Source: a virus
DNA: 29,087 nucleotides
Strand: one strand, 5' to 3'
IMG/VR virus record: IMGVR_UViG_3300012964_000045
Coordinates: 1 to 29,087 of that record
In this document: one piece after another, positions 1 through 22,735 of the stretch
Numbering within the stretch: position 1 is the stretch's first letter
Layout: each line of letters begins with the position of its first letter
Position numbers and translations under genes: made by a program
The notes under the pieces: generated by a model
What the model was told of the DNA's origin: nothing
Databases searched by the model: none
The model's input: the letters and a program-made list of their open reading frames with translations, nothing else

Positions 1-42
1 AAGCGACGCAGGCGGCAAGTCCGCTTGACCGTAAGGTTATAC
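1..42 (+). repeat. attC-like cassette boundary, 3' part only
   Basis: The window opens inside a short hairpin (GCGG at 12-15, CCGC at 21-24). It is followed by TTGACCG (25-31), a 4-nt spacer and GTTATAC (36-42). The same TTGASCG-N4-GTTAKRC layout recurs at 1519-1536 and 1978-1995. GTTRRRY is the integron core-site consensus; this copy deviates at one position. The upstream half lies outside the window. A reading frame entering from the left would stop at TGA 26-28, inside the element, as the genes at the other two copies also do. Confidence 0.45.
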
Positions 43-58
43 GTCTTTTTGGTGAACT

Positions 59-829
59 ATGAACGCATTGAGTTTGTTTTCTGGGATTGGTGGACTTGAC
101 CTCGCTGCGGAGTGGGCTGGGTTTAAGACTGTGGCGTTTTGTGAGCGTGATCCGTTTTGCCAGAAGGTGCTGGCGAAGCACTGGCCGGGGGTAAAGATTT
201 ATGACGATGTGCGAACACTTGACACAAGCGAACTGCCAGCAATTGAACTCTTGCACGGTGGCTACCCATGCCAGCCGTTCAGCACAGCCGGGAACCGGCG
301 CGGAGAGGCCGACGAGCGGCACATGTGGCCGCACATGCTGCGGGTCGTGCGAGAACTCAAACCCCGTTGGGTTGTTGGTGAAAATGTTAAAGGCCACATT
401 ACCCTTGGACTCGATACCGTTTGCAATGACATGGAGGCGGAAGGCTACACCGTCAGGGCGGTTTGTGTTCCAGCTTGCGCCATTGGAGCGGTCCATCGCA
501 GAGAGCGGGTATTCGTTCTGGCCAACGCCTCAAGCGATGGACGGGATGAAGGCGCGACCAGCGGCGGCAATGTACCGCCAGATGACGCACGGCGGGCGGA
601 AGAACAGGCGCAAGATTGCCAACATGAAAGATGTGGCGGTTTACGGCTTGAACTGGACTGGCGAGGCCGTGAGGTTGGGGGATGGGGAGTTGAACCCCCA
701 GCGATTAGAGTGGATGCAGGGCTTCCCGGTCGGGTGGACAGAAATAGAGTTGTAGGGAATTCGGTTTCACCTCAACAGGCGTACCCGATATTCGCGGCAA
801 TTGCCGAGACGTATAACGATTTGACATGA
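59..829 (+). CDS. DNA (cytosine-5-)-methyltransferase, phage type
   Basis: This is a 256-aa cytosine-C5 methyltransferase that would transfer a methyl group from S-adenosylmethionine to a cytosine in a specific DNA site. Motif I (SLFSGIGGLDLA, about 5-16) binds the cofactor. Motif IV is GGYPCQPFSTAG with catalytic Cys71, motif VI is GENV (107-110), motif VIII is HRRERVFVLAN (146-156), and motif X is GNSVSPQQ (233-240). All core motifs are present in order, so it is probably active. The target-recognition region between motifs VIII and X is only about 75 residues and low in recognisable structure, and the protein is shorter than typical 320-450 aa family members. In a phage it would modify the genome against host restriction. 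It sits between two attC-like elements and carries an overlapping second frame (201-755). The recognition site cannot be predicted. Confidence 0.9.
   Translation: MNALSLFSGIGGLDLAAEWAGFKTVAFCERDPFCQKVLAKHWPGVKIYDDVRTLDTSELPAIELLHGGYPCQPFSTAGNRRGEADERHMWPHMLRVVRELKPRWVVGENVKGHITLGLDTVCNDMEAEGYTVRAVCVPACAIGAVHRRERVFVLANASSDGRDEGATSGGNVPPDDARRAEEQAQDCQHERCGGLRLELDWRGREVGGWGVEPPAIRVDAGLPGRVDRNRVVGNSVSPQQAYPIFAAIAETYNDLT
201..755 (+). CDS. Overprinted ORF, phage methylase-associated protein family (+1 frame inside the methyltransferase)
   Basis: A 184-codon open frame lies entirely within the methyltransferase gene, one nucleotide out of phase. Its translation is not random. Residues about 55-95 read as TWRRKATPSGRFVFQLAP, residues 106-114 as SFWPTPQAM, and the C-terminus as NPQRLEWMQGFPVGWTEIEL. 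I recognise this combination (KxTxxGRxxFQLAP, WPTPxAxD, NPxxxEWMMGFPxGWTEL) from a phage protein family often annotated as DNA cytosine methylase or of unknown function. The two frames interlock: LANAS (motif VIII end) is read as WPTPQ, and RVDAGLPGRVD is read as EWMQGFPVGW. No clear ribosome binding site precedes 201, so the true start, or fusion by frameshift from the methyltransferase, is open. The family match is from memory and function is unknown. Confidence 0.4.
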   Translation: MTMCEHLTQANCQQLNSCTVATHASRSAQPGTGAERPTSGTCGRTCCGSCENSNPVGLLVKMLKATLPLDSIPFAMTWRRKATPSGRFVFQLAPLERSIAESGYSFWPTPQAMDGMKARPAAAMYRQMTHGGRKNRRKIANMKDVAVYGLNWTGEAVRLGDGELNPQRLEWMQGFPVGWTEIEL

Positions 830-876
830 GGGGCAACCCTGCTTTTGGGTTGTCCCTCTCGATGGAATAGTTGGGC
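811..876 (+). repeat. Imperfect palindrome, weak attC-like candidate
   Basis: GTATAAC (811-817) and GTTGGGC (870-876) frame a long imperfect inverted repeat whose core stem is GGGGCAACCC / GGGTTGTCCC (one G-T pair) around a 7-nt loop. GTTGGGC fits GTTRRRY exactly, and the outer boxes pair with one mismatch if wobbles count. The TTGASCG box seen in the other copies is poorly preserved here. It overlaps the methyltransferase stop codon (827-829). A simple bidirectional transcription terminator is the alternative, but there is no T-run after the stem. Confidence 0.3.
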
Positions 877-902
877 AACCAAACTTTGAAAAGGAGCAAC
901 AA

Positions 903-1487
903 ATGCAAAGCAATGTACAACAGCGTGGTGCAGTTAAATTTCCGCAATTCCTCGGTGAGCGCGTTTACATGCGCGAATTTACGAAGAGCGGCGGATTGCC
1001 AAAAGACCTTGAGCGGTGGCAGGGAACGATTGACCAAATGCTTGATGGGATAGATGCGCCTGGTTCGATTTTCTTGATGATAGATCAGGCCGAAGTAAAG
1101 GCTGGCGCATCTCACCGCAGGGGCGGTGTGCATGTGGACGGATATTGGGATAAGGCGCTACGCGCACACGGCGGCGGACACAGAGGCGGACACATCATAG
1201 GCGAAGCCTACGAGCCGGAGGCTTTGATATTGGCAACGGACGTGATGGCAAGCTATGCGTACATCGGAGAGTATGACGATGCGCCGGGAAGCGGCGGGGA
1301 CTGCGCTCACATTGACGTGAGCGGGATGCTTTGCACTGACATTGAACCCGGCAAGGTGTGGGCGGGGCATACGCTCACATTTTTGCACGAAGCGATGCCC
1401 GTGGCGAAGGATTGCAAGCGCACTCTGGTACGCCTGAACATTCCGGGGTGGGTGCCCAACGGAACTGAGCTAACAGGCACGCCGTAG
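903..1487 (+). CDS. Conserved phage protein of unknown function with HxD...H...R pattern
   Basis: This 194-aa protein resembles a family of small phage proteins of unknown function, which I recognise from the RRGGVHVDG and GGDCAHID stretches. His77 and Asp79 (GGVHVDG), His162 (TFLHEAMPV) and Arg174 or Arg177 (KRTLVRLNIP) have the order and spacing of the iron and 2-oxoglutarate ligands in double-stranded beta-helix (cupin-like) oxygenases. That is an inference from four residues, not a domain match. AGGAG-type sequence (AAAAGGAGCAACAA) precedes the ATG well. The last residues (ELTGTP) are encoded by the attC-like element at 1468-1536. Its neighbour upstream is a cytosine methyltransferase, so a role in base modification is conceivable but unproven. 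Confidence 0.75.
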   Translation: MQSNVQQRGAVKFPQFLGERVYMREFTKSGGLPKDLERWQGTIDQMLDGIDAPGSIFLMIDQAEVKAGASHRRGGVHVDGYWDKALRAHGGGHRGGHIIGEAYEPEALILATDVMASYAYIGEYDDAPGSGGDCAHIDVSGMLCTDIEPGKVWAGHTLTFLHEAMPVAKDCKRTLVRLNIPGWVPNGTELTGTP

Positions 1488-1536
1488 GCGTGTCCGAGCG
1501 GAACGGAGTGGAGCGGTGTTGAGCGAGTAGTTATGC
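1468..1536 (+). repeat. attC-like cassette boundary
   Basis: AGCTAAC (1468-1474) starts the element and GTTATGC (1530-1536) ends it. Inside are a hairpin CACGCC-GTA-GGCGTG and TTGAGCG (1519-1525), separated by 4 nt from the end box. The TAG in the hairpin loop is the stop codon of the 194-aa gene. It shares AGCTAAC, CGCCGTAGGCG, TGTTGAGCG and GTTA-GC with the copy at 1947-1995. Read on the minus strand, GCATAAC-N4-CGCTCAA matches the R''-L'' side of integron attC sites. No matching L box is visible on the other side, so the site is imperfect. Confidence 0.5.
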
Positions 1537-1550
1537 CACACTAACCGAAA

Positions 1551-1598
1551 AAACGCATATACGAAAACGCTTGACACGAGGTATAAAACGCATATACA
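1551..1598 (+). promoter_or_regulatory. Sigma-70-like promoter with a repeated operator candidate
   Basis: TTGACA (1571-1576) is a perfect -35 box. TATACA (1593-1598) follows after 16 bp as a -10 box. The 12-mer AAACGCATATAC occurs at 1551-1562, upstream of the -35, and again at 1586-1597, overlapping the -10, with a 35-bp period. Such an arrangement suits a repressor binding two sites. The likely regulated unit is the two-gene pair at 1632-1966; the second product looks like a small DNA-binding protein, which would fit self-regulation. Confidence 0.6.
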
Positions 1599-1631
1599 TT
1601 ACGGACTCGACAAACAACACCGGAGAGCTAA

Positions 1632-1811
1632 ATGGAACTCGAAAAAAGAATGTCAGAATTTGGCGAATTTATAATCACTGCGCAAAAAGATGCAGCGCAA
1701 ACAGTGGTTGTTGTTCGTGCAAATAATTTTGGGGTGGCAGAGAAATCTGCATTTATAGAACACGAAATACAATCAAGCGAAATAATCAACATAGAGCGCG
1801 TTAAAAAATGA
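1632..1811 (+). CDS. Small protein of unknown function (59 aa)
   Basis: I do not recognise this 59-aa protein. It begins MELEKRMSEFGEFIITAQ, has a Val-rich strand (TVVVVRANNFG) near residues 25-34 and an acidic C-terminal half ending in ERVKK. The ATG is preceded by GGAG at a good distance (CGGAGAGCTAA). The stop codon overlaps the next start (ATGA), so the two genes are translationally coupled. They share a dedicated promoter at 1571-1598 and lie between two attC-like elements. Small size, pairing and an own promoter are typical of toxin-antitoxin or other self-contained cassettes, but nothing in this protein identifies a toxin. Confidence 0.65.
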   Translation: MELEKRMSEFGEFIITAQKDAAQTVVVVRANNFGVAEKSAFIEHEIQSSEIINIERVKK

Positions 1812-1966
1812 CCGCTAAGAAAAAAGAAGCACGCAAAAGCCGCCCCATTCGGATGACTGATGCCGAGTGGGAAAAGTGCAAAGCGTTGGGCGGGGCGGCT
1901 TTTATCCGGGCAAAAATAAAGGCCGCAAAGGTGGGCATAACTAGAAAGCTAACTGCGCCGCCGTAG
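1808..1966 (+). CDS. Small basic protein, ribbon-helix-helix-like
   Basis: This 52-aa basic protein starts MTAKKKEARKSRPIRMTDAE. The segment RPIRMTDAEWEKCKALGG followed by AAFIRAKIKAAK resembles the beta-strand plus helix-turn-helix plan of short ribbon-helix-helix (Arc/MetJ-like) DNA-binding proteins. These use a basic strand to read DNA and often repress their own operon. The start overlaps the previous stop by ATGA. The stop TAG and the last residues (KLTAPP) are supplied by the attC-like element at 1947-1995. It may bind the repeated 12-mer in the promoter at 1551-1597; this is inference. Confidence 0.6.
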   Translation: MTAKKKEARKSRPIRMTDAEWEKCKALGGAAFIRAKIKAAKVGITRKLTAPP

Positions 1967-1995
1967 GCGGTCGCATGTTGAGCGGCGAGTTAGGC
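1947..1995 (+). repeat. attC-like cassette boundary (best copy)
   Basis: AGCTAAC (1947-1953) and GTTAGGC (1989-1995) bound the element. GTTAGGC is a perfect GTTRRRY core. Between them lies a stem TGCGCCGCC / GGCGGTCGCA with loop GTA and one bulged T, then TTGAGCG (1978-1984) and a 4-nt spacer. On the minus strand, GCCTAAC-TCGC-CGCTCAA is an excellent R''-L'' pair. The partner L box next to AGCTAAC is missing, so the fold is asymmetric compared with classical attC sites. The TAG in the loop ends the preceding gene. Confidence 0.55.
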
Positions 1996-2023
1996 TTTTA
2001 ACTACGAAGCGAAGGAGAAGAAG

Positions 2024-2239
2024 ATGCGCAAGGTCATGGTAAGTGAGCATAAACAACAGCCAGACTTGAAATGGAAACTCGAAGAAAAAGGCGAGGCACT
2101 GTTTCACCAGTTCGGCGTGAACTACGAAGAGTTTGATGTTGGTGCTGGCAACTACAGCACGGCTATTGTTGAATGGCCTGATGGAACGGTGAGCAACATC
2201 CCGGCGGAGCATATCAGGTTTCTTGACGTGCCTAACTAA
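2024..2239 (+). CDS. Conserved small phage protein, function unknown
   Basis: This 71-aa protein belongs to a type seen widely in phage genomes, recognised by the C-terminal stretch GNYSTAIVEWPDGTV followed by a segment ending HIRFLD. The pattern of short beta-strands (FHQFGVNYEEF, YSTAIVEW, VSNIPAEHIRFL) suggests a small all-beta fold. No function is known to me. The start has a strong purine-rich ribosome binding site (GAAGGAGAAGAAG). It follows directly after the best attC-like element, and its own stop codon lies in GCCTAACTAA, another R''-like box. Confidence 0.75.
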   Translation: MRKVMVSEHKQQPDLKWKLEEKGEALFHQFGVNYEEFDVGAGNYSTAIVEWPDGTVSNIPAEHIRFLDVPN

Positions 2240-2240
2240 T

Positions 2241-2277
2241 ATTAGTAGGTGTTCAAAACGCTCGAACACCTACTAAT
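2241..2277. promoter_or_regulatory. Perfect 14-bp inverted repeat over the next gene's start
   Basis: ATTAGTAGGTGTTC (2241-2254) pairs perfectly with 2264-2277 around a 9-nt loop. There is no T-run after it, so it is not a standard intrinsic terminator. It lies 1 nt after the stop of the 71-aa gene and covers the GTG at 2249. It could be a processed or regulatory hairpin, or the stem of another cassette site: GCCTAAC is at 2230-2236 and GTTAAGC at 2291-2297. Confidence 0.55.
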
Positions 2278-2800
2278 TCGGACAGGTTTGGTTAAGCAGG
2301 ACAAATTTAACGATTTACTCGACTTTTGCGCTAAAGAAAGAGAGGGAATGATGAACCCAACACCAGAAAGGCAGCTTGAGATTGCGAATGAGTGCGGGGC
2401 AACAGAAAACGGGTTGTCTATTGATGGTGCATGGAATGTATGCAAGGATGCAGAGAACTACGAGCTAAAACAGGCAATACAGGTTCAGGCTATGCAGCTT
2501 GAGGAACTCCAAGCCAAGCTCACGAAGGTAGAGCAGCAGCGCGAAGTCGCAATGGTTCAGCTAAAAAGCTACGAGCAGATTTTCAAAGATGCGACAAAGG
2601 CTGTTGAGGTTAGGGCAGAACTTGAGCATAAGCTACTCGCAGAGCAGACAGCCCATGCCGAACAGATGCGCGAGAATAATATCCGCTTCAGACAATTCGA
2701 GAAGGCACTTTCCGACTGCATGAATGACCGTAGAGCAGAGCAGGTTCTAAACGCAGGCAGTTCTGAACAAGTACCGAAAAAGGAGGAATTGAAACAATGA
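2249..2800 (+). CDS. Coiled-coil phage protein, function unknown
   Basis: The longest frame gives 183 aa from a GTG start. Residues about 75-150 are rich in Gln, Glu, Lys, Ala and Leu (ELQAKLTKVEQQREVA) and should form a long coiled coil. The C-terminus is charged (PKKEELKQ). The start is uncertain. The GTG lies inside a perfect hairpin with no good ribosome binding site, while ATG 2348 and ATG 2351 follow an AGAGAGG purine tract and would give about 150 aa (MMNPTPERQLEIANECG). The N-terminal extension MFKTLEHLLIRTG does look protein-like. The stop overlaps the next start by ATGA. A structural or accessory role cannot be assigned. Confidence 0.65.
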   Translation: MFKTLEHLLIRTGLVKQDKFNDLLDFCAKEREGMMNPTPERQLEIANECGATENGLSIDGAWNVCKDAENYELKQAIQVQAMQLEELQAKLTKVEQQREVAMVQLKSYEQIFKDATKAVEVRAELEHKLLAEQTAHAEQMRENNIRFRQFEKALSDCMNDRRAEQVLNAGSSEQVPKKEELKQ

Positions 2801-3471: not shown

Positions 3472-4062
3472 ATGGCACGAAAAAGCAAGCTTACAGAAGA
3501 GCAATGGGAGGATATTCGCAAGCGCGTGATAGCTGGCGAATCAGTGCGTGGGCTTGCGGCTGAATATAGCAAGATAATCGGTGGAACAATTTCCGAAGCG
3601 GCCATCAGGCAAAGAATCAAAACAACAACCGGGGGCCGTGTTTCTGTTGATTCAATTAAATTGGCGGCTCAAAAATCACTTCAAAATGATTTGAGCGATC
3701 CAGAAATTCGGCCAATACTAGAATCAATCGGGCCGAAGGATTGGGATTTATTCCATTCCCACAAATCCGATTTGCTGGAAATGACTATGCATTTAAATCT
3801 TGCGGCCAAACTCAGCGCACAGAATGCACATAAGCTGGCAGAAATGGCCCAGAATCATCTGAGCAAGGTGGAAACCGATGCGGAGCTTGATGCCGATACC
3901 CGAATAAGTATAAACGATGCAATGATGCTTCAAAGCTGTTCAAATGAATCGTCAAAGCAGCCGATGAAGCTATTTGAGATAGCCACAAAGCAACCGCCGC
4001 CCCTTCCTGAAGATAAGCCGTTGCGCATTATCGGCGGCCTGCCAGATGTGCCGTATGAATAG
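3472..4062 (+). CDS. terS: Terminase small subunit (putative)
   Basis: This 196-aa protein precedes and overlaps the large terminase gene, the usual place for the DNA-recognition subunit of the packaging motor. Residues about 8-50 (LTEEQWEDIRKRVIAGESVRGLAAEY, then SEAAIRQRI) form a helix-turn-helix, as expected for binding the pac or cos site. The middle (85-150) is helical and probably mediates ring assembly. The C-terminus is proline-rich (PPPLPEDKP) and may dock to the large subunit. Assignment rests on the domain plan and position rather than on a strong family match. No good ribosome binding site is visible (TATTTCTGCAC before the ATG). Confidence 0.8.
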   Translation: MARKSKLTEEQWEDIRKRVIAGESVRGLAAEYSKIIGGTISEAAIRQRIKTTTGGRVSVDSIKLAAQKSLQNDLSDPEIRPILESIGPKDWDLFHSHKSDLLEMTMHLNLAAKLSAQNAHKLAEMAQNHLSKVETDAELDADTRISINDAMMLQSCSNESSKQPMKLFEIATKQPPPLPEDKPLRIIGGLPDVPYE

Positions 4063-5347
4063 CATTCAGCGCACAAGAGGAAATGGAAGTACGGTTACGC
4101 TCCCAACACTCCATCCGGGGCAAGTGCAAGCCTATATGCTTCGGAAAAGGTTCAAGGTTATCAGATGCGGAAGGCGCTGGGGCAAAACTGACTTGCTCAA
4201 GACCATTGCAGGGGATGGGGCAGTAAAAGGGCATTCAATCGGTTGGTTTACGCCTGATTACAAAATTCAATCAGAAGCCTACAATGAAATAACGGAAATG
4301 CTTCATCCGGTTATTCGATCCGCGTCAAAAATTGATGGTGTGATTCGCACCATTACCGGAGGCCGCATAGATTTTTGGACGTTGAATAACCCGCGTGCCG
4401 GACGATCCCGTAAATACCATACTGCATTGCTGGATGAAATTGCCTTTGCTGGCGATGATATGCTTGATATTTGGGAGAAGTCTATAAAGCCTTCATTGCT
4501 TGACTATGGCGGCAACGCAATCGCAGCCTCAACCCCGGCAGGAGATAACCCAGAAAATTTCTTCTGGAAGCTTTGCAACGATTCGCGTCTTGGGTTTGGC
4601 GAATACCATGCGCCAACCCATACCAATCCATATTTGCCGGAAATAGAGCTTGCCAAGTTGATTGACGAAAACGCCCCGTTTGTTTATTCACAAGAGTATT
4701 TGGCGAACTTTGTTGATTGGAAAGGGGCGGCATTCTTTTCCCAAGATTCGTTGCTTGAAAACGGCCAGCCAGTTTTTCCAACGATGAATTGTGATGCGGT
4801 TTTTGCCGTTGTTGATACTGCAATCAAGGATGGCAAGGAACATGACGGTACAGCAGTAACCTATTTCGCCGTTTCAAAGCTGCATGGCACGCCTTTAGTT
4901 ATCCTTGATTACGATATGGTACAGATCGCCGGGGATTTGCTTGAAAACTGGATGCCGCAGGTTTACAAGCGTTGCGAAGAACTTGCCGCAGCAGTTCAGG
5001 CCCGGCATGGATCGCTGGGCGCTTTCATTGAAGATAAGCAAACCGGAACGATCCTGATTCAGCAAGCAGAGCGCAGGGGGCTTCCCGGCAGGGCTATAGA
5101 TAGCAAACTAACCGCAGCCGGGAAGGATGCACGCGCAATTTCTGTTTCCGGGTATGTGCATCGCGGCATGGTGAAAATCTCTGTGCAGGCATTTACTAAA
5201 GTGATAAACTTCAAAGGAATAACCCGCAATCATTTCATTTCGCAAGTGTGCGGTTTTCGCATCGGCATCAAAGATCAGATGGACGATTTACTTGATACGT
5301 TCACTTATGGAATCAGTATTGCGCTGGGCGATTCATCAGGATATTAA
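4046..5347 (+). CDS. terL: Terminase large subunit (packaging ATPase and nuclease)
   Basis: This 433-aa protein pumps DNA into the prohead and cuts the concatemer. Walker A is GRRWGKTD (residues 42-49) with the terminase-type Arg-rich loop. Walker B is TALLDE (126-131), and a coupling motif ASTP is at 161-164. The C-terminal RNase H-like nuclease shows the acidic residues Asp257 (AVVDTA), Glu329/Asp330 (FIEDKQTG) and Asp410-Asp414 (KDQMDDLLD). Length and motif spacing are complete. The ATG at 4046 overlaps the small subunit gene by 17 bp. ATG 4055 is an alternative, and neither has a strong ribosome binding site, so coupling to the upstream gene is likely. Confidence 0.95.
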   Translation: MCRMNSIQRTRGNGSTVTLPTLHPGQVQAYMLRKRFKVIRCGRRWGKTDLLKTIAGDGAVKGHSIGWFTPDYKIQSEAYNEITEMLHPVIRSASKIDGVIRTITGGRIDFWTLNNPRAGRSRKYHTALLDEIAFAGDDMLDIWEKSIKPSLLDYGGNAIAASTPAGDNPENFFWKLCNDSRLGFGEYHAPTHTNPYLPEIELAKLIDENAPFVYSQEYLANFVDWKGAAFFSQDSLLENGQPVFPTMNCDAVFAVVDTAIKDGKEHDGTAVTYFAVSKLHGTPLVILDYDMVQIAGDLLENWMPQVYKRCEELAAAVQARHGSLGAFIEDKQTGTILIQQAERRGLPGRAIDSKLTAAGKDARAISVSGYVHRGMVKISVQAFTKVINFKGITRNHFISQVCGFRIGIKDQMDDLLDTFTYGISIALGDSSGY

Positions 5348-5381: not shown

Positions 5382-6794
5382 ATGAGTTCTTCAATTTCAA
5401 TCACAGGATCAATCGCAGGCAATGCCCTCCAAACTTTGCTGATGGCCGAAGATATTCAGCCCGGAGATTCCCCCAGCTATGAACTTTGCAAAACGGTTTA
5501 TCTATATCATCCCATGGGTTCAAAGATGGTGGATTCCCCTCTTACCATCGCGATGTCAAAAGCCCGTAATATTTCCGTTCCGGACGGGCCAGAAGAGAAG
5601 ATTGTTGAAGCGTTTGAACGCGAATGGAAAAAGCTGAAATGTGATTTTCATATCAAGAATGTAATGCGCCAAAAGCGCATTTATGGCATAGCTTCGGTTG
5701 TGTATGGGGCGAAGGGCGTTCCTACTGACAGGCCAATGGATATGCACACACTGGCCGATCTGGATATTTATTTCAATGTTCTTGATCCGCTTAATACTGC
5801 CGGAAGTCTTGTGCTGAATCAAAACCCGAATTCTCCCGATTTCCAGAAAGTACACAATATCACGGCGGCCGGGCAAGCTTATCATCGTTCCCGCGCTTGC
5901 GTAGTTTTGAACGAAGAGCCGATTTACATTGCATACAGTTCATCAGGCTTCGGCTTCGTTGGTCGTAGCGTTTTTCAGCGTGCGCTGTTTCCGTTGAAAT
6001 CCTACATTCAAAGCATGATCACAAATGATTTGGTAATCACGAAAGCAGGGGTGTTGATCGCCAAGACAAAACAGCCCGGCTCCATCATTGACAATCTCAC
6101 GGCTTCATTCATGCGCCAGAAGCGGGATATGATCAAAGAAGCTGTTCAGGGTAATGTGATCAGCATCGCAATGGATGAATCCGTTGAAAGTCTGAACCTG
6201 AACAATATTGATACGGCCATTGGCACGGCCAGAACAAACATCATCGAAGATATTGCATCGAGTGCAAACATGCCGCCAAAGTTACTTTTGGCGAATGGCT
6301 ATGCCAGCATTCTTGCGAACGGCACGGAAGATTTCAAGTCAACCATGCAATTCATAGATTCACTTCGTGAAGATATGCAGCCGCTTTATGATTTCTTCGA
6401 TCCAATCGTAATGTATCGCGCATGGAATCCGGAGTTCTACAAGACCATTCAGGCGCAATTCCCAGAATATCAGGGCGTTGGTTATACGGAGGCATTCTAT
6501 CGCTGGAAGAACAGCTTTACAGCTATCTGGCCCAGCCTTCAAGAAGAGCCGGAATCGGATAAGGCTGATGCCGATAAAGTAAAACTGGATGCCATCAAAG
6601 ATATTCTTGAAACCTTGCATTCAAAGATTGATCCTGAGAATCAGGCATTGCTGATTAAATGGGCCGCAGATAACATAAACCAAAACAAGGTAATGTTCAG
6701 CACGCCGCTTGATCTGGATTTTGAGGCATTGGCAGAATATGAACCACCGCCTCCCGGCCAAGAGCAGGAAGAGCCTCAAATTGTAGAAAAATAA
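5382..6794 (+). CDS. Portal protein, DUF1073 type
   Basis: This 470-aa protein fits the DUF1073 portal family, which forms the dodecameric ring at the head vertex through which DNA passes and to which the neck attaches. Typical features are the N-terminal segment with YELCKTVYLYHPMGSKMVD, the RIYGIASVVYG region (about 100-115), and a long central helical stretch containing ANMPPKLLLANG (about 295-310), near the stem and wing of portal folds. The C-terminus is acidic and proline-rich (EYEPPPPGQEQEEPQ) and probably disordered. It follows the large terminase by 34 bp and precedes a head morphogenesis gene by 1 bp, the normal packaging-head order. Ribosome binding site GAGGGG is clear. Confidence 0.9.
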   Translation: MSSSISITGSIAGNALQTLLMAEDIQPGDSPSYELCKTVYLYHPMGSKMVDSPLTIAMSKARNISVPDGPEEKIVEAFEREWKKLKCDFHIKNVMRQKRIYGIASVVYGAKGVPTDRPMDMHTLADLDIYFNVLDPLNTAGSLVLNQNPNSPDFQKVHNITAAGQAYHRSRACVVLNEEPIYIAYSSSGFGFVGRSVFQRALFPLKSYIQSMITNDLVITKAGVLIAKTKQPGSIIDNLTASFMRQKRDMIKEAVQGNVISIAMDESVESLNLNNIDTAIGTARTNIIEDIASSANMPPKLLLANGYASILANGTEDFKSTMQFIDSLREDMQPLYDFFDPIVMYRAWNPEFYKTIQAQFPEYQGVGYTEAFYRWKNSFTAIWPSLQEEPESDKADADKVKLDAIKDILETLHSKIDPENQALLIKWAADNINQNKVMFSTPLDLDFEALAEYEPPPPGQEQEEPQIVEK

Positions 6795-14389: not shown

Positions 14390-15841
14390 ATGTCGGCAAA
14401 TCAGATCGTACAAGTCAACGTATCGCAAACAATTGCGCCAACGCCAAACAGGCTTCAGCAAACCGGAATTATAGTTACTCAGGGCGGAACCAATACACTT
14501 GCTGGAACCGTAACGCTGATTGCCACTCAAGCACAGCTTTCTGCCATTCTTGGAACACCCGGAACTCCGGCAACAAAACTTCAGGCAGCATTTAATACCT
14601 TCACGGCAAACAATGCAGCAGGCCGCGCAATATATGTGCTTGAGCTAGGTTCTGGCGCAACTTCCGGGTATGTTGTCGGCGGGGTTCTTTCCGGAACTGC
14701 TCTTGCCGTTTCTACTTGGACAGCAATTACGGCTGGATCAATGGCGATCACCATTGATGGCGTGGTAAAAACGCTTTCTGCTATCAACTTTTCAACTGGT
14801 GTCAATACGCTTACCGACGTTGCGGCCAAGATCACAACGGCACTTGGCGCTTCGGGTTCTTGCGCATGGAATGGATCAAGTTTTGTAATCACAAGCGCAA
14901 CAACTGGCGCGACTTCAACGGTTTCATATGCAAGCGCAACAGGTTCCGGAACCGATATATCAGCATTGGCCGGGCTTGTAACTGGCGTTGCTTCCGTGCC
15001 TGTTCCCGGTTATGTGGCTGGAACTGCCGCAGGAATTTCTGCCCTGCAATTGTTCATTGCTAGCAATCCGAAGAAATATTATGCCTATCTTTTGCCGGAT
15101 GGATGGAGCGCAGATTCAACGCTTTTGGGTTTCGTCAATCTCTATACTGGAACAACGCAAGAAATCTATTTCTATTTCCATGCAACGGCGGTAACCTACG
15201 GTATTTATGCGGCCAAAAAGAGCGTTGTTATGGCGATCCAAGCCGCAGCAGCGCCAAGCACGGAATTTACAGTTGCAGCATGGTTTGCTGGGGTTCTTCA
15301 GTATGATCCAAGCGCAACGAATCAGGTTACACCGTTTGCATTCCGTTTCTTGTTCGGCGTTACGGCATATCCAATCTCTTCTGTTGATGCGATCAACTTC
15401 AAGGCAGGCAATCTGAACTTTGTTGATACCGGGGCAGAAGGCGGAATTTCCAATACCATTGCAAAATGGGGTGTAACTGCTGATGGCCGCGATATTACCT
15501 ATTGGTATTCAGTGGACTGGTCACAAATCAATTTGGAACTTGATTTGGCGAATGCGATCATCAACGGATCGAACAACCCATTGGCTCCGCTTTATTACAA
15601 CCAAAGCGGCATTAATCGCCTGCTTGCTGTTGCTCAAGGAACAATGAATCGGGCGATCACTTATGGGCTGGCACTTTCGCCTGTAACCGTAACGGCGATT
15701 GATTTCCTGACTTATACAACGGCAAATCCAAGCGATTATTCGCTTGGAAAATATACCGGGCTGGCATGTAGCTATGTTCCGGCACGCGGATTCACAAACA
15801 TCATTTTCAATCTGAATGTAACCGATTTCGTTACTGGCTAA
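14390..15841 (+). CDS. Tail sheath protein, DUF3383 type
   Basis: This 483-aa protein forms the contractile sheath around the tail tube. It belongs to the DUF3383 type by the opening MSANQIVQVNVSQTIAPTPN, the YVLELGSG strand (about 82-89), the ASNPKKYYAYLLPDGWSAD stretch (about 224-242) and the C-terminal domain. A Thr/Ser/Ala/Gly-rich segment (about 105-205) containing SMAITIDGVVKTLSAINFST reads as an extra surface domain of a kind often inserted in DUF3383 sheaths. It is followed by tube, chaperones and tape measure in standard order. Ribosome binding site GTGGAGG is 7 nt from the ATG, behind a structured leader. Confidence 0.9.
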   Translation: MSANQIVQVNVSQTIAPTPNRLQQTGIIVTQGGTNTLAGTVTLIATQAQLSAILGTPGTPATKLQAAFNTFTANNAAGRAIYVLELGSGATSGYVVGGVLSGTALAVSTWTAITAGSMAITIDGVVKTLSAINFSTGVNTLTDVAAKITTALGASGSCAWNGSSFVITSATTGATSTVSYASATGSGTDISALAGLVTGVASVPVPGYVAGTAAGISALQLFIASNPKKYYAYLLPDGWSADSTLLGFVNLYTGTTQEIYFYFHATAVTYGIYAAKKSVVMAIQAAAAPSTEFTVAAWFAGVLQYDPSATNQVTPFAFRFLFGVTAYPISSVDAINFKAGNLNFVDTGAEGGISNTIAKWGVTADGRDITYWYSVDWSQINLELDLANAIINGSNNPLAPLYYNQSGINRLLAVAQGTMNRAITYGLALSPVTVTAIDFLTYTTANPSDYSLGKYTGLACSYVPARGFTNIIFNLNVTDFVTG

Positions 15842-21544: not shown

Positions 21545-22735
21545 ATGACTTTGCCCATAGTTATGTCAACGCAAGGATTGGTTCCGCGCACGCCTTCCGA
21601 TATTCGTACACAATTAACGAATAATGTTGCCGCGACAAATCCCGGCTATACAAACAATCTTCCCGGTTCTCTAATCGAAGATATTTCAAGCACTGATGTT
21701 GCGGCCATCGCGTTATGTGAACAGGCACGCATTGAGCTTGTAAATTCTATCACCCCATATGGAGCAAATGAATTTCTTCTCACTCAGCTTGGAAACGTGT
21801 ACGGTGTAACGCTTGGAGAGCCGACAAATGGGAGTGTTTACGTTACTTTTACAGGGCAAGCTGGCTTTGTGATCCCGCAAGGATTTATCGTTTCGGACGG
21901 TACGAATCAATATAAAGCTGCCGATGGCGGAATTATCGGAAGCGGTTTAACTGCTTCGCTTTATTGCATCGCCACAAATTCAAATTCATTTTCAATTCCA
22001 GCCGGAACGGTTACGCAAATAATCACTTCTGTACCATCACCTTTTACGCTTTCATGCACAAATCCGCTTGCTGGAAATCCTGCGACAACAAAAGAATCCC
22101 CGGATAGTTATCGCGTGCGCGTGCTTCAGGCTGGGATTGCCGCATCACAAGGTATGGCACGCTATCTGAAAACCTTGCTACCTCAAGTGCCGGGAGTTGT
22201 TTCGCGCTTGATTGCTGTTCGGCAGGGCGCGGGAACTTGGAAAGTTATTTGCGGCGGCGGCGATCCGTATCAAGTTGCATATGCGATTTATCAAGCTCTT
22301 TTCGATATAACGGATTTGGCCGGATCGGCTACGCCAGCGCGAAATGTAACGGTTACGATCAATGATTATCCTGATGTGTATCAAGTGATTTTCGTAAATC
22401 CGCCAAAACAAGATGTTGGAATTGTTCTTACTTGGAACACCACGGCAACCAATGCCATTTCTGATTCATCCATTGCCCAGCTTGTTTCGCCTCAATTGGA
22501 AGCGTATATAAATTCGCTTCCTGTTGGATATACCATCAACATTTTTGATATGCAGGATATTTTCCTAACAGCCGTTAATGCCGTAATTCCATCGCAATAT
22601 ATTTCCAAGCTGAATTTTGCTGTAACGATCAACGGCGTTCCAACTTCACCATCAGCCGGAACTCAGCTAATTTATGGCGATGCGGAAAGTTATTTTCAAA
22701 CTATATCAACGGCTATTTCGATTGTGAGGGGCTAA
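21545..22735 (+). CDS. Baseplate J-like wedge protein
   Basis: This 396-aa protein is the gpJ-type wedge component. The N-terminal region has PSDIRTQLTNNVAATNPGYT and LPGSLIEDISSTDVAAIALC. The middle contains NGSVYVTFTGQAGFVIPQGF (the inserted beta-sandwich) and ESPDSYRVRVLQAG (about 180-193), a hallmark of the family (ES-x-x-YR-x-R). The C-terminal part is alpha/beta (DYPDVYQVIFVNPP). It polymerises around the hub and carries the fibres via gpI. Good ribosome binding site GGAGAAGCAAA, behind a structured leader. Confidence 0.92.
   Translation: MTLPIVMSTQGLVPRTPSDIRTQLTNNVAATNPGYTNNLPGSLIEDISSTDVAAIALCEQARIELVNSITPYGANEFLLTQLGNVYGVTLGEPTNGSVYVTFTGQAGFVIPQGFIVSDGTNQYKAADGGIIGSGLTASLYCIATNSNSFSIPAGTVTQIITSVPSPFTLSCTNPLAGNPATTKESPDSYRVRVLQAGIAASQGMARYLKTLLPQVPGVVSRLIAVRQGAGTWKVICGGGDPYQVAYAIYQALFDITDLAGSATPARNVTVTINDYPDVYQVIFVNPPKQDVGIVLTWNTTATNAISDSSIAQLVSPQLEAYINSLPVGYTINIFDMQDIFLTAVNAVIPSQYISKLNFAVTINGVPTSPSAGTQLIYGDAESYFQTISTAISIVRG

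Follow-up and report, generated by a model that had tools for sequence, protein, structure and literature searches.

Clusters of attC sites without an integron integrase (CALINs) have been described in the tailed phages TJE1, H101/PH101, P12002L and MW202573 by Qi et al. 2023 (PMC9892861), with methyltransferase genes among the cargo, cassettes in one direction and activity of IntI1 in an assay. The same paper also covers complete integrons of temperate phages (Vibrio anguillarum phage p16, P1 L-II and Shewanella M16-3), which likewise place attC arrays on phage DNA and have an integrase. We analyzed a stretch of 29,087 bases (the window), which is the complete IMG/VR record IMGVR_UViG_3300012964_000045 and, being of linear class, probably a fragment. 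Positions 1-2236 are very probably an integron cassette array without an integrase of its own (a CALIN), carried by a tailed-phage genome. The window resembles the phage CALINs in attC sites with no intI on the fragment, tailed-phage context, methyltransferase cargo and cassette direction, whereas recombination was measured there and the window is known from its sequence; it also differs in the phage and in the cassettes, two of which recur, with left ends exact to the crossover, in other viral contigs. In contrast to the complete temperate-phage integrons, the fragment has no integrase. Sedentary chromosomal integrons of bacteria likewise have canonical attC sites and single-gene cassettes, whereas the window has a short array, phage structural neighbors and no visible intI or attI. 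Phage attC arrays are thus already known, and the window adds a well-supported case to them without defining a new system; what goes beyond the considered part of PMC9892861 is crossover-precise sharing between unrelated viral contigs, contig numbers from IMG/VR and changing attC bodies.

A sequence-only reading of this DNA had called attention to three elements with the motif TTGASCG-N4-GTTAKRC, and its copies (25-42, 1519-1536, and 1978-1995) indeed lie on the + strand in the first 2 kb and nowhere else in the 29 kb; 100 shuffles contained none. AGCTAAC is likewise present at 1468 and 1947, followed in both elements by CGCCGTAGGCG, and the stop codons in the CGCCGTAGGCG hairpin are those of the 194-aa and 52-aa genes. 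The placement of AGCTAAC at the start of the elements has to be revised, because folding pairs it with GTTGAGC, leaving one bulged base, and AGCTAAC is therefore the inner L'' box pairing with L'. An extrahelical base is typical of attC sites, and the bulge is that base. The true R'' boxes, GCCCAAC and GCATAAC, lie upstream of AGCTAAC, so that the sites span 83 bp and 61 bp (attC 2 and attC 3; Table 1), which is ordinary attC length. Pairing of R''/L'' with L'/R' and the extrahelical base were found, most clearly at 1935-1995, where the bottom strand takes an attC-like fold with a bulged base (z -2.55), and with weak L pairing at 811-876. Intrinsic terminators were considered and dropped, a terminator scan having detected none of the elements, and an Rfam search with them gave no match.

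Table 1. Features of the array and of the adjoining phage genome in the window.
Feature	Position	Strand	Evidence or remark
Half attC (right half), cut by contig end	25-42	+	L' TTGACCG 25-31, R' GTTATAC 36-42; motif match
Cassette 1 (TT...G), 834 bp	37-870	+	R' GTTATAC 36-42 and R'' 811-817 are exact reverse complements
C5 cytosine DNA methyltransferase, 256 aa	59-829	+	PF00145, E 3.8e-40; phrog_363, E 4.8e-79
attC 1	811-876	+	R'' GTATAAC 811-817, R' GTTGGGC 870-876; 26.4 bits, E 3.4e-5
Cassette 2, 660 bp	871-1530	+	R'/R'' exact match GTTGGGC/GCCCAAC
194-aa protein, phage family of unknown function	903-1487	+	phrog_8970, E 6.8e-52
attC 2	1454-1536	+	R'' 1454-1460, L'' 1468-1474, L' 1519-1525, R' 1530-1536; 19.6 bits, E 0.0026
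Cassette 3, 459 bp	1531-1989	+	R'/R'' exact match GTTATGC/GCATAAC
Promoter-like site in cassette 3, TTGACA-18-TACATT	1571-1600	+	Weak: one found, 1.8 expected by chance
Two small overlapping genes, 59 aa and 52 aa	1632-1811, 1808-1966	+	Open reading frames
attC 3	1935-1995	+	R'' 1935-1941, L'' 1947-1953, L' 1978-1984, R' 1989-1995; 41.5 bits, E 1.9e-9
71-aa protein, phage family of unknown function, fourth cassette	2024-2239	+	phrog_11000, E 1.2e-20
R'' GCCTAAC, fourth cassette	2230-2236	+	Exact reverse complement of R' 1989-1995
Terminase large subunit, start of phage structural part	4046-5347	+	phrog_2, E 4.6e-23
Portal	5382-6794	+	Family matches
Tail sheath	14390-15841	+	Family matches
Baseplate	21545-22735	+	Family matches

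A home-made box-pairing score hardly rose above a Markov null, and a covariance model was used instead, built on the R, L, and inner stems of 13 attC sites from other contigs and on zero window sequences; the donor contigs were found via a pattern or protein from the window, so the model is independent of it in sequence, not in sampling. When both strands of the window were scanned unfiltered, only the three complete sites of Table 1 scored, far above background, with the next-best hit at an E value of 1.9; the palindrome at 811-876, which the sequence-only reading had added to the series as a weaker member, came second. The model detected sites in all three published phage attC clusters used as positive controls (TJE1, H101, and MW202573), those of TJE1 being on the other strand from the genes. 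Seven terminase-related loci yielded no site at E 0.1, and viral loci with a related methyltransferase were silent in 33 of 35 cases at E values up to 1, the two that scored (L061 and L062) being the closest relatives. CALINs are recognized by at least two nearby attC sites, and here three lie within 1.2 kb, together with the half site at 25-42. The elements are located at gene ends and two have strong stems, as might be expected of terminators or of further hairpin types with a chance likeness to attC, but this explanation is extremely improbable, as it is contradicted by the covariance E values and by the crossover boundaries and R'/R'' matches described below.

When a cassette is excised as a circle, its own start supplies the R' box, and R'' should therefore match that start and not the adjacent R'. 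In the window, R' and R'' are exact partners in all four cassettes (GTTATAC/GTATAAC, GTTGGGC/GCCCAAC, GTTATGC/GCATAAC, and GTTAGGC/GCCTAAC), whereas within one attC R'' and R' disagree at 3, 2, and 1 of the 4 free positions; the chance of such a partner 150 to 900 nt downstream of a random GTT site is 8%. The match was perfect in 176 of 218 cassettes from 48 contigs, all of them IMG/VR records except one bacterial metagenome-assembled genome (MAG) contig, compared with 80 when both boxes came from a single attC and no more than 84 after shuffling. The cassette units proposed earlier, with one or two genes per boundary, are borne out, except that the methyltransferase and 194-aa genes form two separate cassettes.

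Integron integrases cross over at G↓TT, and the boundaries of two cassettes could be read from relatives. The same methyltransferase stands directly behind an attC in L061 and L062, whose viral status is that of the IMG/VR listing; near-identity of the three begins at GTTATAC (window position 36, with similarity of cassette 1 to both contigs starting at 35-36), and the preceding attC halves align poorly, although L062 is also partly similar to the window upstream of G↓TT, within the attC arm. The R'' box and outer arms of attC 1 are common to the attC behind the L061 methyltransferase. The 194-aa cassette is 93.4% identical to one in L016 over positions 870-1461, from GTTGGGC to just past GCCCAAC, and both flanks differ; L016 is part of a 50.7-kb phage with a portal family unlike that of the window. 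Similarity sets in at G↓TT in window versus L016, window versus L061, and L061 versus L062, and from the methyltransferase and 194-aa alignments the left boundary of these two cassettes is therefore G↓TT. In the array of L014, a different phage contig, one repeat matches the final 66 nt of attC 2 at 97% identity. DNA similarity searches of plasmids and named phages with positions 1-2400 returned nothing useful. These alignments are sequence-level evidence that unrelated viral contigs share integron cassettes at a left-end precision like that of integron integrase, with a DNA methyltransferase as one cargo.

Family searches placed the backbone genes of the phage on the + strand downstream of the array; the terminase large subunit is 55% identical to its counterpart in Shewanella phage vB_Sb_QDWS. 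The fragment is from a myovirus, a tailed phage with a contractile tail, and the array lies upstream of the packaging genes. Covariance scores, G↓TT left boundaries, and phage-gene neighbors agree on integron-like cassettes at the end of a phage genome, as had been suggested. The position of the array at the extreme contig end would also suit an assembly chimera, in which the end of a bacterial integron is fused to a phage contig; we consider this very unlikely, since attC clusters accompany terminase, portal, or helicase genes in other phage contigs as well and some of the cargo belongs to phage protein families. A fixed array position adjoining the terminase, compared by reading coordinates, was dropped as a general feature: it is true of the window and of three further contigs (G009, G010, and G012) and not of G016, H101, or MW202573. 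Neither an integron integrase nor a tyrosine recombinase was found in the 29,087-base record, in keeping with the sequence-only reading; its left end falls inside an attC, and a complete integron, with intI and attI beside the array, is not seen in this contig that lacks its left side.

The sequence itself shows the attC sites, the cassette units and their sharing with another phage, the precise left boundaries and the surrounding phage genes; we infer that an integrase acts in trans, most likely from an integron-bearing host, and that the array is still active. Each cassette consists of one gene, or a small pair, and its attC; the host would supply the integron integrase during infection, the attC bottom strand would fold when single-stranded, and the integrase would join one cassette to another at the G↓TT in R'. 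Cassettes might then be lost, gained, and exchanged between phages meeting in one cell, perhaps also with host integrons. Phages would be users as well as carriers of a cassette pool, and a phage without an integrase could renew its accessory genes via that of its host. Several observations count against this plain model: the contig ends inside an attC, and an integrase or attI farther left is possible; the right-hand boundaries deviate; and the fourth cassette is without a scoring attC. Among genome contigs, one attC pattern matched a single 3.5-kb MAG contig, whose genome held no intI over the cutoff, so this search led to no host and no host integrase.

A cassette normally takes its attC along. 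The 194-aa cassette and its L016 homolog have different attC bodies, so that its own attC is not unchanged up to the next R', and in eight homologous cassette pairs from different contigs (69 to 94% identity) similarity often breaks off 7 to 10 bases after R'' begins and never extends as far as the attC end. This is a real departure, and the other cassette features stand. Unlike bodies on homologous cassettes were seen at window positions 1454-1536 and L016 1823-1888, in L134/L142 and L136/L115, and in other pairs. Drift may account for the divergent pairs and hardly for window versus L016 at 93%; the alternatives are an exchange of attC bodies at R'' and homologous recombination between attC sites. 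L010 and L015 carry near-identical arrays, one of them with a whole cassette more than the other, and the leftover spacer suggests a crossover inside the attC body and not at G↓TT, which favors homologous recombination between attC sites, a pattern that point changes could mimic.

Differing attC bodies, the L010/L015 crossover, a RecE-like exonuclease encoded by the related phage G012, and the lack of an integrase in the window would all suit cassettes that were once captured by an integrase and are now a static relic, present exchange being homologous recombination at attC repeats. We regard this as rather unlikely, because the shared cassettes have G↓TT left boundaries and the R'/R'' match is intact in four of four cassettes, which neither a decayed nor a purely homologous system would have to preserve. 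We can speculate that unrelated phages draw on a common cassette pool in which the traveling unit is R'-gene-R'' and the attC body is swapped independently of it at R'', although as a whole this proposal is doubtful and probably incorrect. Recombination of R'' with R'', for example by integrase on the other strand, would fit genes with new attC sites. If true, a separate exchange of attC bodies would be relevant to the open problem of cassette formation. The repeated change of attC body among homologous cassettes offers a lead, amenable to testing, on the way an attC is acquired.

Judged by its family, the methyltransferase would shield phage DNA from restriction and is a possible antirestriction gene. 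In the 194-aa protein, the stretches HVD, LHE, and RTxVRLN are invariant among three relatives and recall iron(II)/2-oxoglutarate oxygenases, a similarity that may serve only as a lead; its AlphaFold model was unusable (pLDDT 35), and its PDB sequence matches were set aside as chance (E above 0.2). The 59-aa and 52-aa genes found no match in family searches. Two direct repeats of AAACGCATATAC (1551 and 1586; window 1551-1600) flank the TTGACA box before these genes, and the pair with its AAACGCATATAC repeats could be autoregulated, such as a toxin-antitoxin module. The 71-aa gene of the fourth cassette begins after the R' box of attC 3 and has its end on the R'' box GCCTAAC, which is followed 3' by a perfect 14-bp hairpin (2241-2277); the covariance scan found no scoring attC after 2230-2236, and phrog_11000 relatives are without an adjoining attC in the loci checked. 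The GCCTAAC box had been counted in the series, and it is convincing as an R'', whereas the right half of the site is not; either the attC of the fourth cassette has decayed, or this is where the array was formerly joined to the phage genome.

The earlier view that attC arrays in phages are rare calls for some qualification, as two strict attC patterns alone match dozens of IMG/VR contigs (14 and 52 stretches, some of which may be host DNA). G009 (IMGVR_UViG_3300022208_000278, 58.5 kb; L013, L052-L054) is a phage with terminase, head protein, and replicative helicase genes. It lacks intI, and its 24 attC matches form several clusters distributed over both strands, so that a large part of the accessory genome looks as if assembled from cassettes. 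The viral contig G005 (L009, L060) encodes an integron integrase (L060 8713-9693, E 6.8e-130) with six attC matches on the strand of that gene, a second, phage-type integrase, and tail genes, and is possibly a complete integron with inverted integrase in a prophage. Lastly, the MAG contig JAALKB010000284.1 (L048, 3.5 kb, from a gammaproteobacterium bin) is a dense attC array, one of whose sites matches, at 96% identity over 53 nt, the attC preceding a methyltransferase in the viral contig L004.
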